A stretch of 64,000 bases of DNA from Baaleninema simplex PCC 7105 (GTDB lineage: Bacteria; Cyanobacteriota; Cyanobacteriia; Cyanobacteriales; Geitlerinemataceae). Of the stretch, positions 8,845 to 14,113 are shown in pieces (within the stretch, counting starts at the first letter, position 1; the number at the start of each line of letters is the position of its first letter). The notes beneath the pieces were generated by a model that was given only the letters and a program-made list of their open reading frames with translations, searched no databases and was not told the DNA's origin. Location of the stretch: contig NZ_KB235958.1 of NCBI RefSeq assembly GCF_000332355.1, positions 1,358,552-1,422,551 on the forward strand, given 5' to 3'. The position numbers were made by a program, and so were the translations under genes.

Positions 8845-9396
8845 TCAATTTTCGGATTTTCCGAGGGTGTAGTGCAGTTTCAAGAAACTATCAAAAGCGT
8901 ACCAAGCTAAGGCGTACCAGGGAATGACATTTAACTGAACGCCTTCTACGATTAACTGTCGAACGGCTAAGGTTCCGAATCCCAGCGGCACCAAAAATCG
9001 TAAATCCACTGCGCCTTCCGTAACGCGATCGATCTGACGGTTCGCTGAGGCAATGACCTCCGTTAGTTCTGTAGCTGCGTCAGATTTATCAGATACAACA
9101 AAGCGGATATTTAAGTCTTGCAAAATACCGTACAGTCGATCGCCTGAAATGCGATCGCGATCGTAATAAACCGTCACGCTACCGTTGTCGAGATTGACGC
9201 GAACGCTCGCGTTTGGGAGATGCGATCGTAATGCTGTGGCAATGGGTTGCACTGTGGCAGGAAAGCGATAGTCAGAAGCCACTCGAAACCGAAATCTTCC
9301 CGGCGTATCGCTCATCAAACGAGCCGGAACGGTGACAGTCGGAGCGAGTTTTCCGTTGCGTTCCGACGCGACGCGAACGTCATTTTCAGTTAACAT
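8845..9396 (-). CDS. HMA_2-domain membrane-associated protein
   Basis: About 183 residues. A heavy-metal-associated type 2 domain covers residues about 20-90. It starts with the signature SDTPGRFRFRV in place of the CxxC loop of classical HMA domains and ends with VNLDNGSVTVYYDRDRIS. The C-terminal third holds hydrophobic stretches (LRFLVPLGFGTLAVRQLIV and VIPWYALAWYAFDSFL) that look membrane-inserted. ATG 9396 has GCGGAGG upstream; the frame extends to 9417. It is the last gene of the minus-strand metal-ATPase block. A small inverted repeat GGTATT/AATACC lies at about 9469-9488 upstream. Confidence 0.75.
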   Translation of the reverse strand: MLTENDVRVASERNGKLAPTVTVPARLMSDTPGRFRFRVASDYRFPATVQPIATALRSHLPNASVRVNLDNGSVTVYYDRDRISGDRLYGILQDLNIRFVVSDKSDAATELTEVIASANRQIDRVTEGAVDLRFLVPLGFGTLAVRQLIVEGVQLNVIPWYALAWYAFDSFLKLHYTLGKSEN

Positions 9397-9675
9397 CGTT
9401 TCGCAAAACCTCCGCATTTTCGATCGCTAATATTTTTGAGAGAGGGAATAGGGAATGGGGAACGGGGAATAGGTATTAAAAAAATACCGTTTTCTTTGTA
9501 TATCTGGAGTTAAGAATTTTGCAAATCTAGATTTTCTGAAATGAATTCCCGAGCGACAACGAATAGAAAGTGAGAGATGGATAGATAGGCAATGCCTCTC
9601 AAATCTCCATCCCCCACTCGAGTATTGTGTCGTCAAGGGACGGCAATTTATACCTCATCGGTTGAAGATGCCGTT

Positions 9676-9957
9676 TTAGCTGCTTTCCGGTGTATTTTCA
9701 GCAGCATTGAGGACTTTTTGGGATCGATCTTCTGCTAGTTCTGCTCTCGCTTCAGCGACCATGTCTTCAAACACTTCTCCCGTTTCGGCTAAGAATCCTT
9801 TGCTTTTTTCATAGGCTGTGATTCCGCCTTTGATGACTGCTTTAGCGAGTGGTTTTCCTGCTTTGACGGCAAAGGGGGCGAGAACAAGTAATCCTATGCC
9901 TGCAGCAATTCCCGGAACTCCAACATCTTCTAAGAGATCTTCAGGATGGAATGCCAT
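9676..9957 (-). CDS. DUF5132 small membrane protein A (PacL-like layout)
   Basis: 93 residues, preceded by a strong GAGGAGG ribosome site. A short acidic N-terminus is followed by one hydrophobic segment (GIAAGIGLLVLAPFAV), a conserved basic stretch (GKPLAKAVIKGGITAYEKSK) and an amphipathic acidic helix FEDMVAEARAELAED. DUF5132 proteins commonly sit beside P1B ATPases. The arrangement and the VAEAR piece resemble the mycobacterial PacL (DUF1490) proteins that scaffold metal-efflux ATPases. That link is my inference from layout and a short match, not demonstrated homology. It is followed by the HMA_2 gene after 279 bases. Confidence 0.75.
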   Translation of the reverse strand: MAFHPEDLLEDVGVPGIAAGIGLLVLAPFAVKAGKPLAKAVIKGGITAYEKSKGFLAETGEVFEDMVAEARAELAEDRSQKVLNAAENTPESS

Positions 9958-10189
9958 ATATTTTAATCCTCCTCGTTCGATACAAGCGAAACAAAAAATG
10001 TGAAGGGCTGTTAGGCAATTCGACGTTACGCTTTTCCTCCATTCTAAACAACAATTCTAAAAAAAACAAGGTGCAGTTACTTGAAAAATGAGGGAAACAG
10101 ATCGGCAAATTTAGTATTGCTTCGATCTTAAGAATTATTTTTCTTTGGAATAGGCTGTGGGCTTCCCCTCACTTGACTTTGCTTTCTAC

Positions 10190-10504
10190 TCAATCCTCGA
10201 TCGGGGTAGAGGAGACTGAAACTGTTTTAAGGTATTCAATTTCCTGGTTTTTTGCCGATTGTTTCAGTTCTTCTCGACTTTCTTCAAGCATTTTCTCGAA
10301 CGTTTCCCTCGCTTCAGACAATACCACTTTTCCTTTGTCGTACGCCATCAATCCGCCTTTGATGGTTGCTTTAGCGAGGGGTCTTCCCACTTTGGCGAGT
10401 GACGAGCCAAAAAACGGGGCTAGGACGAGAACGCCAACTCCTAAAACTATGCTGGGAAGGCCAAAATCTTCGATAAAATCGCTAAGGTCTAGATCTAAGT
10501 CCAT
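10190..10504 (-). CDS. DUF5132 small membrane protein B (PacL-like layout)
   Basis: 104 residues, a diverged duplicate of the protein at 9676-9957. It has the same order: an acidic start (MDLDLDLSDFIEDFG), a hydrophobic helix (IVLGVGVLVLAPFF), VGRPLAKATIKGGLMAYDKGK, then the acidic amphipathic FEKMLEESREELKQS. ATG 10504 is chosen because AGGAGG lies ten bases upstream; the longer open frame to 10717 overlaps the ATPase gene in another frame. The tandem pair suggests a hetero-oligomeric scaffold or two partner specificities. Confidence 0.75.
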   Translation of the reverse strand: MDLDLDLSDFIEDFGLPSIVLGVGVLVLAPFFGSSLAKVGRPLAKATIKGGLMAYDKGKVVLSEARETFEKMLEESREELKQSAKNQEIEYLKTVSVSSTPIED

Positions 10505-10634
10505 GATATCATTTACCTCCTGAGTTAGATAGGATTCACCGAGTTTGTTGTTGCCAATCTTTTGAACTCCTGACAAGTTCGACTTTAAAAATCGTGTTTT
10601 TGGGTGGGCGACAATACATCGACGGGACTTGAGT

Positions 10635-12902
10635 TTACCGGGATTTTTCGATCGCCCGTTCCGGAAGCGGACAACCGCCGAGTACCGGACGCAAGCCGTT
10701 GACGCCCACCAACGCACTGGAACCGTTATTAATCAACGTGGCGGCGATGGGATGGAGTCCCACCGTAGTCGCCATGGCCAACCCTGCCAAATTCGAGACT
10801 GTCACGACGCCGGTATTTTGCTCGATAATGCCGCTGGCGTGGCGAGCGATCGCGATCGCCTCCACCAACCCGTGTAAATCGTTCTGCATCAACACCACAT
10901 CGGCGGTTTCGCGGGCGATATCCGAACCGTCGCGGAACGATACCGAAACGTCCGCATAGGCTAACGCCGCCGAATCGTTCAAGCCGTCTCCCACAAACGC
11001 CACCGTTTTGCCTTCCGCGTGCAGTCGCTGCACCACTTCCGCCTTATGCTCGGGAAAGGCTTCGGCGTGGATGTTGGCATCGAGAATCCCCAATTCCGCC
11101 GCCACTGCCTTGGCACGCTGGCGGTTGTCTCCCGTGAGCATATGCAGTTGGGCGCCGATGTCGTTGCGAAGCAATTCCAACACGGCGGGACTTTCGGGGC
11201 GCACGGGATCGGTATATTGAATCGTGCCGATCGCCTCGCCGTTGCTGGCGACGTAAATCGTAGGATAGAGGGTCCCTTTGAGGTCTCCGTGGCGACGCCA
11301 CAAGGGATCTAAATCCACCTCTTCGCCCACCATAAACCGCTCGCTTCCCACGAGAACCGAGGTTCCGTTAATTTGCGCTTTGATGCCCAATCCCACACAG
11401 TAATCCCATTTCTTGCGGGGGAGGACGTCCACACCTCTGGCTTTGGCGTAGGCGGTAATGGCGGCGGCGACGGGATGAGTGATGCGCTGTTCGGCGGCAG
11501 CGGCAGCCTGGAGAACGTCTCGTTCGTCGATCGCATCGCTTGCAGTTCGCACGCCGATAACAGTCACCTCGCCTTGAGTCAGCGTCCCGGTTTTGTCGAA
11601 AACGATCGCATCGACGTGGGCGATTTGTTGCAACGCCCGTCCGCTTTTAATCAAAATGCCCCGTCGCGCCGCCGCACTCAAGGCTGCCATAACGGTGGTG
11701 GGAACGGACACCCGAATTCCCGTGGCAAAGTCCAGGGTAAAAATAGAGGCAGCCCGCGCCGCGTTGCGGGTGGCTAAGAACAGGGTTCCTCCGAGAAGCA
11801 GGGTCGGTAATACAGCGCGATCGGCCAGCTTCGCGGCGTAGTTTTCAATGCGCGTGTCGTGCAACGGTGCGTGTTGCAACAGTTGCAACATCTGTCCGGC
11901 GCGAGTGTCCGCCCCCAGATATTCGGCGCGAAGGTAAATTTGTCCGTCCCGTACCAGCGTCGAAGCGTACACCGTTTCTCCCGAACGGCGCAAGACGGGC
12001 AGGGATTCCCCAGTGAGTTTCTGTTCGTCGAGGGTTGCCCGTCCCCGTAAAATCGTTCCGTCTACGGGAACCTGTTCGCCAGGATAAACGATGACCGTGT
12101 CGCCCCGTTTCACGTCTTCGATGGGAATTCGGTGTTTTTTTCCGTTCCGTTCGACCCACACCATCGGGTCTAAGAGACTCAGTAAATCGTCAGTTTTGTC
12201 TTGGTAAGTGCGGGCGGTGCGATCGCGGATGGCTTCGCCGAGTTGAATCAGTGCCACCATACTCGACGAGGCGACGAGTTGTTTTTGGGCGGTGATGATG
12301 ACGAGAGCGCTCAAATCGAGGAAATCTACGTTAAGGCGACCTCGTCCGAACAAACTGGCAAAAGCACGTTTGGCTACGGGTAAGGCTGCCAGGGCGATCG
12401 CCCCTTGTTTCAACACCAGCGGGACAGACAGTCCTATCGGACCGCCGAGAACGGCCAGACTTGCGGCGAAAACGGGGAGTCGCAGGGACGACCAAAATCC
12501 TTTTTCCGGCGAAACGTCCTGTTGGGAAAGTTTTCGTTGGACTTGCAGCGGAATGACGCTGGCGCTGGCAAGCTGGATTAAGTTCGCCAGGCGATCGCGA
12601 ATTTCGGCATCGTCACCGTTGACAGGATAAACCACGACGACGCAGGCGGCGGCGCGATCGACCCGCACGCGATCGAAGCGATCGTCGAGTTCGATTAAGG
12701 CTTTAAGATGTCGTGCGTAGTGGGCGTCTTTGAGTAGTTTGGGAACTCGAAAGCGGATTCGCCCCGCGATGGCGTGAACGATGCAATAGGAAACAGTTGG
12801 ACGATCTTCGACCGAACGGTCGGGTTTGATAACGGACGGTTTCTTATAACACGCGGTGTCCTGACGGGACGCCCGTTCGGGTTGGATGAGTACTTGAGTC
12901 AT
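10635..12902 (-). CDS. P1B-like heavy-metal ATPase without cysteine metal motifs
   Basis: 755 residues, an integral-membrane P-type ATPase. Phosphorylation and ATP sites are intact: TGES at 297-300, DKTGT at 436-440, the P1B-specific HP dipeptide at 476-477, TGDN at 590-593 and GDGLND at 638-643. The N-terminal HMA-like domain has AGRIRFRVP where metal ligands CxxC would be. The metal-site helix before the P domain reads FATGIRVSVPT, so the usual CPC/SPC/APC triplet is replaced. Metal ions are therefore not predictable from rules for known subgroups. A GGAGGGAGGAGG ribosome site directly precedes ATG 12902. The flanking HMA_2 and DUF5132 genes on the same strand suggest one transport complex. 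Confidence 0.88.
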   Translation of the reverse strand: MTQVLIQPERASRQDTACYKKPSVIKPDRSVEDRPTVSYCIVHAIAGRIRFRVPKLLKDAHYARHLKALIELDDRFDRVRVDRAAACVVVVYPVNGDDAEIRDRLANLIQLASASVIPLQVQRKLSQQDVSPEKGFWSSLRLPVFAASLAVLGGPIGLSVPLVLKQGAIALAALPVAKRAFASLFGRGRLNVDFLDLSALVIITAQKQLVASSSMVALIQLGEAIRDRTARTYQDKTDDLLSLLDPMVWVERNGKKHRIPIEDVKRGDTVIVYPGEQVPVDGTILRGRATLDEQKLTGESLPVLRRSGETVYASTLVRDGQIYLRAEYLGADTRAGQMLQLLQHAPLHDTRIENYAAKLADRAVLPTLLLGGTLFLATRNAARAASIFTLDFATGIRVSVPTTVMAALSAAARRGILIKSGRALQQIAHVDAIVFDKTGTLTQGEVTVIGVRTASDAIDERDVLQAAAAAEQRITHPVAAAITAYAKARGVDVLPRKKWDYCVGLGIKAQINGTSVLVGSERFMVGEEVDLDPLWRRHGDLKGTLYPTIYVASNGEAIGTIQYTDPVRPESPAVLELLRNDIGAQLHMLTGDNRQRAKAVAAELGILDANIHAEAFPEHKAEVVQRLHAEGKTVAFVGDGLNDSAALAYADVSVSFRDGSDIARETADVVLMQNDLHGLVEAIAIARHASGIIEQNTGVVTVSNLAGLAMATTVGLHPIAATLINNGSSALVGVNGLRPVLGGCPLPERAIEKSR

Positions 12903-12976
12903 CCTCCTCCCTCCTTGGGCTTAACGGTCGATGCAACGAGCTTGTGAGTCGGGTGTTCGATCTGGCTTCGATGTTT

Positions 12977-14113
12977 TTAAGCCCGACCGAGTGAAGTATT
13001 CGCCATCCAGTCGAGAACGACAGACATGGCAGAGGATTTAAACCGCGACCAGGTATTACTGGCTTCAGGTATCTCCGATTCAGATGTCTCAGCCTCAGAT
13101 GTTTCAGCCTCAGATGTCGTGGAATCAGAGGGGTCAGCCTCAGATATCTCAGCCTCAGATGTCTCAGCCTCAGATGTCGTGGAATCAGAGGGGTCGGACT
13201 CAGAGATTTCGGGAGGTTCCGGCGGGATGTAGCCGGTGTCGTCCTCCTTCGCTGACGAAGCTTTGCCGTTTTTATCTTCCGTGTCGCGGGTTCGCGAGGG
13301 GGGTTCGACTGTGGGAACCTCTAGCATTTCGGTGGCCAGAAGCAAGCTGGCGATGCGGGCGCGAATTTCCCGAGACGAACGGTTTTTTGAATAGGTGACG
13401 GTGACGGAGGCGTTGGCGGGGTTGATGCGAACGGCGGTAATTCCCTCTTCGATCGCTGCCAGTTTTTGTAAGCGTTTGCCGAAGGTGGCGTTTTCGGCGA
13501 CAGGTGGTAAGCGCAGGCGCAAGCGTCCGGGGGTGTCGTGAACGACGATATCAGCCAGGGCGATCGCCTGCACGGTCTCGACCGTACTGCTGTCCTCTGC
13601 CGGAATTTCGGACGACACCTCGTCCCCATCACGGAATCCGTCGAAATCGACTGTTTCGAGGATCTGGCGGGAAACTGCGGTCGCCAGCAGGTAGGCGGGA
13701 AGGGCAGTCCAGCCGTAAATCCGAAGGGCGCGAACGATGGCAATTCCCAGCAGAGGCGGAACGAAAGATTTGAGACGAACGAGAGCGGTTTGTAAGTCCT
13801 CGGAACCGATCGCGGCTTGGCTCTCGTCGTCAGACCCGTTAGACAAGGGGGCGATTTCTTGAAGGGCAAGCGGCTCGAAAATCTCTGAAACGGTCGCGCT
13901 TGCGGGATCGAAACGAACGGTCAGACTTCCGGTGTCTGGGTTGGTGCGAATCTCGTCGATGCCGGTTTGTCCTTTGAAGTGTCGAGTTAAGGCGTCGATC
14001 GTGTCTGTGTCTGTTGTATCTTTCACGCGCAACCGCACTCGACCGGATACCGCCGAAACGACTTCTACATCGCCGATTTTGCGGTGTGGGTGATGTTCCC
14101 CCATGGCATTCAT
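12977..14113 (-). CDS. Double HMA_2 protein with an acidic Ser/Glu-rich repeat tail
   Basis: About 378 residues, first gene of the metal-ATPase block, 74 bases upstream of the ATPase. Two HMA_2 domains are visible, near residues 10-80 (SAVSGRVRLRV) and 185-260 (HDTPGRLRLRLPP). A hydrophobic hairpin (VPPLLGIAIVRAL and TALPAYLLATAV) lies between them. Residues about 300-350 are built of TSEAE-like pentapeptides. ATG 14113 has AAAGGGA five bases upstream. A His-rich GEHHPHRK near the start could bind metal. Likely a membrane-anchored adaptor delivering substrate to the ATPase, or organising it; the function is inferred from neighbours only. Confidence 0.72.
   Translation of the reverse strand: MNAMGEHHPHRKIGDVEVVSAVSGRVRLRVKDTTDTDTIDALTRHFKGQTGIDEIRTNPDTGSLTVRFDPASATVSEIFEPLALQEIAPLSNGSDDESQAAIGSEDLQTALVRLKSFVPPLLGIAIVRALRIYGWTALPAYLLATAVSRQILETVDFDGFRDGDEVSSEIPAEDSSTVETVQAIALADIVVHDTPGRLRLRLPPVAENATFGKRLQKLAAIEEGITAVRINPANASVTVTYSKNRSSREIRARIASLLLATEMLEVPTVEPPSRTRDTEDKNGKASSAKEDDTGYIPPEPPEISESDPSDSTTSEAETSEAEISEADPSDSTTSEAETSEAETSESEIPEASNTWSRFKSSAMSVVLDWMANTSLGRA
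13071..13200. repeat. 15-bp/60-bp coding repeats (SEAET motif)
   Basis: Within the double HMA_2 gene the unit GTCGTGGAATCAGAGGGGTC occurs at 13116 and again at 13176, exactly 60 bases apart. 15-base sub-repeats (CAGCCTCAGATGTCT type) fill the interval. All steps are multiples of three, so copy-number change alters tail length without a frameshift. Confidence 0.85.

Follow-up and report, generated by a model that had tools for sequence, protein, structure and literature searches.

A cyanobacterial locus of DUF5132 proteins, HMA_2 proteins and a P-type ATPase as a probable PacL-type pump platform

Five genes and their products

The window is a 64,000-nucleotide stretch of the Baaleninema simplex PCC 7105 genome, an assembly that also contains CP43/CP47-type genes of photosystem II. 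All five minus-strand open reading frames that the initial annotation placed in a row are present in it. They encode a P-type ATPase, two small DUF5132 proteins and two proteins made of one or two HMA_2 domains. In the order of transcription, the genes and their main features are as follows.

12977..14113, minus: double HMA_2 protein ending in an acidic Ser/Glu-rich tail; PF19991 5e-14, PF00403 1e-6; start ATG 14113
14024..14044, minus: GRVRLRV, strand 1 of HMA_2 copy 1 of the double protein; from sequence and by analogy with the models of the single HMA_2 protein and the ATPase
13508..13528, minus: GRLRLRL, strand 1 of HMA_2 copy 2 of the double protein; same basis
10635..12902, minus: P1B6-clade P-type ATPase, 755 aa, with an N-terminal HMA_2 domain; TIGR01525 489 bits; tree; model mean pLDDT 85; nearest solved folds are P1B pumps
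12744..12764, minus: GRIRFRV at ATPase residues 47-53, with a modelled strand at 48-52; 46 aligned pumps from several phyla all have G47, R48 and R50
11697..11738, minus: ATPase TM4 motif TLDFATGIRVSVPT, residues 389-402, replacing the CPC region; from the alignment, with a helix break at 390-391 in the model
11577..11597, minus: DKTGTLT of the ATPase with phosphorylated aspartate D436; invariant in alignments
10725..10730, minus: N725-N726 in ATPase TM6, where P1B6 pumps have their HN motif; alignment A5 shows N726 to be invariant; relatives have HN
10190..10504, minus: DUF5132 protein B (divergent); PF17195 4.4e-4, below cut-off; ATG start after AGGAGG
10265..10291, minus: acidic helix MLEESREEL of protein B, aligned to VAEARAE of protein A
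9676..9957, minus: DUF5132 protein A; PF17195 1.8e-17, over cut-off
9739..9759, minus: acidic helix VAEARAE of protein A, residues 67-73, with E69 and E73 invariant (56/56 sequences)
8845..9417, minus: single HMA_2 protein with a C-terminal helical membrane module; PF19991 4e-10; model mean pLDDT 78; alignment
9280..9300, minus: GRFRFRV, strand 1 of the single HMA_2 protein; modelled strand, residues 41-46

Of the gene starts given earlier, that of the double HMA_2 gene stands, whereas that of DUF5132-B has been revised. The start of the single HMA_2 protein is probably the second ATG, at 9396, which has the better ribosome site. The genes are separated by 74, 130, 232 and 258 bp, gaps that make a single transcript plausible. 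At E <=0.001, the genome holds only two DUF5132 and three HMA_2 matches, all of them at this locus.

The ATPase retains intact DKTGTLT, TGES and GDGLND motifs. Its TM4 lacks CPC and carries TLDFATGIRVSVPT instead, a sequence kept across the whole pump subfamily. The tree (a quick search, with SH-aLRT supports and no bootstrap) places the cyanobacterial and Deinococcus pumps as sister to the DUF6110-linked P1B6 pumps (SH-aLRT 98), and CtpC-like actinobacterial pumps branch next (SH-aLRT 96). The pump thus belongs to P1B6 by its place in the tree. By the HN motif of TM6 it does not, having NN there; HN is found in a paralogue pump of the same genome and in one related clade. The DUF6110-linked pumps of Firmicutes have HN in TM6 and VDFSCALKL at the same place in TM4. 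The best named relative lies on a plasmid of Gloeothece verrucosa PCC 7822, and the best actinobacterial plasmid relative comes directly after a DUF1490 gene.

H43, G47, R48, R50, D391, P401, N704 and N726 are invariant in the alignment of cyanobacterial and Firmicutes pumps (A5). With CtpC-like and Deinococcus pumps added, G47, R48, R50 and P401 remain so. The conserved membrane site consists of D391, T394, N704 and N726. Since this site has D, T and N and no cysteine, the pump probably transports a divalent cation that is harder than Cu+ or Zn2+. The same cysteine-free site and the DFATG in place of CPC could also be read as those of a pump for some other cation, such as K+, Mg2+ or Ca2+, so that any platform would serve ion homeostasis and not detoxification; the use of the same partners by P2-type pumps (below) fits this as well. 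However, sequence, tree and fold all place the pump among the P1B pumps, and its CtpC-like relatives export Zn (PMC9374683). We regard an other-cation pump as quite unlikely and retain a P1B6-clade exporter as the working assignment.

Recurrence of the neighbourhood and probable kinship with PacL

Co-occurrence of DUF5132 with P-type ATPases across genomes, proposed as a check in the initial annotation, was found. Of the genomes sampled from the phylum, 48 of 373 have the pump subfamily (E <1e-130) and 57 of 386 have DUF5132. Forty-five of the 48 pump-bearing genomes also carry DUF5132 (hypergeometric p about 4e-43, a value uncorrected for kinship). We read 59 DUF5132 loci for ~9 kb on each side, or less at contig ends. 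This pump is present in 34, a P2-type pump in 7, an HMA_2 protein only in 9 and none of these in 9. DUF5132 therefore adjoins a P-type ATPase in 41/59 loci, an arrangement that counts towards membership of the wide PacL superfamily. One DUF5132 subgroup, with the sequence xPDLGDLxEGLG..., stands alone with no pump or HMA_2 gene nearby (L069, L076, L079, L081).

Seen from the pump side, DUF5132 at the Pfam level lies within 5 kb of 39/62 pumps and is missing from that distance in the other 23. Small TM genes beside pumps of this second kind (L238-L256) yielded no convincing DUF5132-like candidate. The paralogue pump of the same genome (55% identity) is followed after 48 bp by a DUF5132-like gene (L237:10554-10820, plus strand, 88 aa). 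Because this neighbour falls below the Pfam cut-off, the Pfam-based DUF5132 counts are somewhat low.

A chance neighbourhood with no shared function could be argued from the 130-258 bp gaps between some genes and from DUF5132 genes that stand alone, as at the 9/59 loci where about 9 kb of flanking sequence holds neither a pump nor an HMA_2 gene. Yet dozens of genomes share the neighbourhood, with proteins that are about 50-60% identical, and the window's own genome repeats it at a second locus. Given the cross-genome co-occurrence and the adjacency of pump and DUF5132, chance is very unlikely indeed. Besides these pump and HMA_2 families, no family recurs in >18 loci. No metalloregulator was recognised among the recurrent neighbour families, as judged only from their sequence starts.

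The layout first described for the DUF5132 proteins, with one TM helix, a basic neck and an acidic helix, is borne out and conserved. P28 is present in 55/55 sequences, K39 (as K/R) in 56/56, D65 in 55/56, and E69 and E73 each in 56/56. Deinococcus peraridilitoris has a small protein (L096:7029-7352) with a TM helix, a basic neck and an AVAEAKHE helix. Its gene lies 12 bp ahead of a sister pump, and it matches no relevant Pfam family.

The profile similarity to mycobacterial PacL (DUF1490) that had been proposed for checking was also found. DUF5132 and DUF1490 score 32 over 73-74 columns, close to the 34 of the published DUF6110-DUF1490 relation in the same comparison. None of 120 column-shuffled profiles reached this score (maximum 20.2), and TatA and YtxH controls scored about 16 or less against DUF5132. 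The absolute probability of the match is moderate (28-79%). The alignment used for DUF1490 was small, at 9 rows. The DUF5132-DUF6110 match is short (21-23 columns), and the control pair DUF6110-YtxH scores 29 over 15 columns. Because of these two results, the profile scores by themselves are suggestive rather than final.

PF07371, the DUF1490 model, matches none of the five gene products, nor anything at this locus in a search of the genome. The C-terminal metal-binding motif of PacL, present in some of the DUF1490 proteins compared, is absent, and the DUF5132 C-terminus has no His/Cys-rich stretch. The PacL TM residues K9 and G17xxG20 are not found either; the TM helix starts without a lysine, and a G20 and G22 pair is conserved in place of G17xxG20. 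Because the Pfam model, the metal-binding motif and K9 do not match, DUF5132 should be kept apart from DUF1490 and not filed under it. Its features suggest that it is probably a member of the same wider PacL superfamily (DUF1490/DUF6110) and, by analogy, that it probably works like PacL. Judged by the numbering of a close PacL homologue (L186), the V-A-E-A glutamate of PacL2 is probably its E71, which would then correspond to E69, invariant in DUF5132.

The GR-x-R HMA_2 domain

The initial annotation had put GR-x-R-x-R at the position of the CxxC loop. This was mistaken, as the models place the motif in beta-strand 1 (residues 41-46 in the single HMA_2 protein, 48-52 in the ATPase). The would-be CxxC loop comes after this strand and contains no cysteine. 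GR-x-R as a CxxC replacement is rejected on these predicted structures, and a canonical CxxC loop is absent from all four HMA-like domains of the locus. The HMA_2 domain of the ATPase N-terminus is below the Pfam cut-off (0.005). The PF00403 (HMA) match at 1e-6 belongs to the first copy in the double HMA_2 protein, and the fold of the single HMA_2 protein resembles HMA chaperones with modest Foldseek E-values (0.02-0.1).

That HMA-like fold, together with the weak PF00403 match, is what could be said for HMA_2 proteins that bind metal and hand it to the pump, the substrate-delivery role proposed earlier. There is no CxxC and almost no cysteine in them, and the residues that are conserved are the strand 1 arginines. 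Metal delivery is accordingly not supported, and we consider it very improbable.

The strand 1 arginines instead bring the domains under CoBaHMA, a family with the HMA-like fold whose strand 1 carries conserved basic residues. CoBaHMA domains were reportedly first described with cyanobacterial calcyanin, and they have been proposed to bind anionic lipids through their basic surface. The HMA_2 domains may thus be lipid-binding modules whose basic strand holds anionic lipids and so places or regulates the pump, with DUF5132 as a separate membrane organiser that makes no contact with them. This proposal, a basic strand 1 with no cysteines, and the same domain at the end of a diacylglycerol-kinase-type lipid kinase near a DUF5132 and an HMA_2 gene in Gloeothece all speak for such a role. 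It leaves unexplained the PacL-type small proteins beside the domain in several phyla, and also the helix-to-N-domain binding seen in mycobacteria. A lipid role is the main rival to docking of the small proteins on the domain and, although unlikely as the whole explanation, may coexist with it.

The GR-x-R HMA_2 N-domain was then compared across pump classes. Pumps adjoining DUF6110, surveyed with a consensus-like query that Pfam confirms as DUF6110, have it in 76 intact cases. It is present in 39/40 DUF5132-linked pumps of the DxxTG type, and also in DUF1490-linked pumps of other P1B clades with CPC or SPC, those read being plasmid-borne relatives and not the Mycobacterium tuberculosis proteins themselves. 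All 8 of the P2-type pumps next to DUF5132 have it as well, seven by Pfam and L089 by our own profile. This profile was built from P1B6-type and CtpC-like pumps, and five of the eight score <20 bits with it; several N-domain Pfam matches fall below cut-off. Among 28 P-type ATPases from the genomes of eight relatives, the domain occurs in two, both belonging to the present pump type and having a DFxTG motif. The remaining 26 have CxxC HMA domains or none, and none of the seven P2-type pumps among the 28 has a GR-x-R N-domain. These sequence patterns suggest that the GR-x-R HMA_2 N-domain, rather than transport class, marks PacL-linked pumps, which is a new observation.

At loci with a P2-type pump, the membrane module that forms the C-terminus of the single HMA_2 protein is fused not to an HMA domain but to a DUF5132-like part. 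This domain shuffling ties the components of the locus together. P2-type (Ca2+-ATPase-like) pumps with an N-terminal HMA_2 domain lie beside DUF5132, or beside a fusion of DUF5132 with the HMA_2-protein module, in L080, L082, L083, L086, L089, L091, L065 and Microvirga L181.

Two further kinds of protein carry the domain. One is the YegS/diacylglycerol-kinase-type lipid kinase of the Gloeothece verrucosa plasmid (L095:14950-16452), which has a C-terminal HMA_2 domain and lies near DUF5132, HMA2 and pump genes. The other is a set of pseudo-P-type-ATPases of about 700 aa in which DKTGT, TGES and GDGxND are gone but a GR-x-R or DR-x-R N-domain remains. Six genomes from a single family in the same class hold 10 strong copies (L248:6034-8145, minus; L249:5886-8048, minus; L249:2148-4274, plus; L090:14191-16281, plus; also L287-L292), and in 5 of the 6 genomes they lie directly beside an active pump. 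Such dead homologues beside active pumps would be in keeping with a hetero-oligomeric assembly.

A proposed platform and its known counterparts

In M. tuberculosis, PacL uses its acidic helix to bind the N-domains of the pumps linked to it (PMC13043812). Changing E55, E59 and E71 of PacL2 from E to A weakens CtpG binding, destabilises CtpG and abolishes its cadmium resistance (PMC13043812). As far as can be told by analogy, the faces that touch in mycobacteria are the two parts conserved here, and it is this match that leads us to propose docking between helix and HMA_2 domain. The present analysis establishes the genes, their homology, their co-occurrence across genomes and the conservation of both faces.

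On the proposed mechanism, the ATPase would be a P1B6-clade exporter and the two DUF5132 proteins PacL-related scaffolds that cross the membrane once and would associate in it through their TM helices. The cytoplasmic acidic helix (D-I-V-A-E-A-K/R-x-E) would dock on the pump's N-terminal HMA_2 domain, probably at its basic GR-x-R face, which would stabilise the pump and gather copies of it into clusters. The single and double HMA_2 proteins would act as extra docking domains (or lipid anchors) that cross-link the assembly, and not as metal carriers. For this organism we infer the docking, the clustering and the substrate class.

Taken as a whole, the locus is probably best explained as encoding a PacL-type (effluxosome-like) pump platform. 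The initial reading of a PacL counterpart is thus strengthened by the profiles, the co-occurrence, the pump tree and the shared N-domain, and gives way in its assignment of substrate delivery to the HMA_2 proteins. More tentatively, as a generalisation that may well prove too broad, the CxxC-less GR-x-R HMA_2 domain could be a general docking port for PacL-superfamily helices (DUF1490, DUF6110, DUF5132). Set before unrelated pump classes (P1B6, CPC, SPC, P2), it would create portable two-part adaptor platforms in Actinomycetota, Bacillota, Cyanobacteriota, Deinococcota and Pseudomonadota; in one cyanobacterial family the dead pump homologues would belong to them too.

Effluxosomes have been shown in mycobacteria only, with an extension to DUF6110 suggested, and no mention of DUF5132 was found in the literature searched. 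What appears new from these comparisons is the DUF5132 branch, the pump clade of the DUF5132 systems and the HMA_2 N-domain as a mark of PacL-linked pumps. PacL-style pump organisation is probably wider spread than known, and such platforms may work through one shared docking domain. If true, this would give a role to DUF5132, a family of unknown function, and a likely partner surface to the poorly characterised P1B6 pumps, and it would open the PacL mechanism to tests in harmless bacteria. One N-domain across several pump classes suggests a rule in which the adaptor domain, not the substrate, picks the platform pumps.

Among the closest known systems are the M. tuberculosis effluxosomes PacL1-CtpC, PacL2-CtpG and PacL3-CtpV, whose small proteins are DUF1490 (PMC9374683, PMC13043812). 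In both, the gene of a P1B pump carrying an HMA_2 N-domain adjoins one for a small single-TM protein with its basic neck and acidic helix, and the small proteins share profile similarity. Unlike PacL, DUF5132 has neither the metal-binding motif at its C-terminus nor K9 in its TM helix. The pump here is without CPC, and the locus adds single and double HMA_2 genes and has two scaffold genes.

DUF6110 is paired with P1B6 ATPases, mainly in Firmicutes, and a platform role has been suggested for it (PMC9374683). These systems share with ours a sister pump clade, the GR-x-R N-domain and an adjacent small TM protein without a metal-binding motif. They differ in TM4 (VDFSCALKL versus LDFATGIRVS here) and TM6 (HN versus NN in this pump), in gene order (small protein then pump, whereas here the pump comes first) and in having no HMA_2 satellite genes noted in their loci.

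With CoBaHMA, the domains described here share the HMA-like fold, the lack of CxxC and the conserved basic residues of strand 1. CoBaHMA is proposed to bind anionic lipids, whereas the HMA_2 domains here are linked to PacL-family partners. Finally, the P2-type ATPases with an HMA_2 N-domain beside DUF5132 or its fusions with the HMA_2-protein module (L080-L091, L181) use the same adaptor parts with another pump class, their scaffold and membrane module being fused in one protein.
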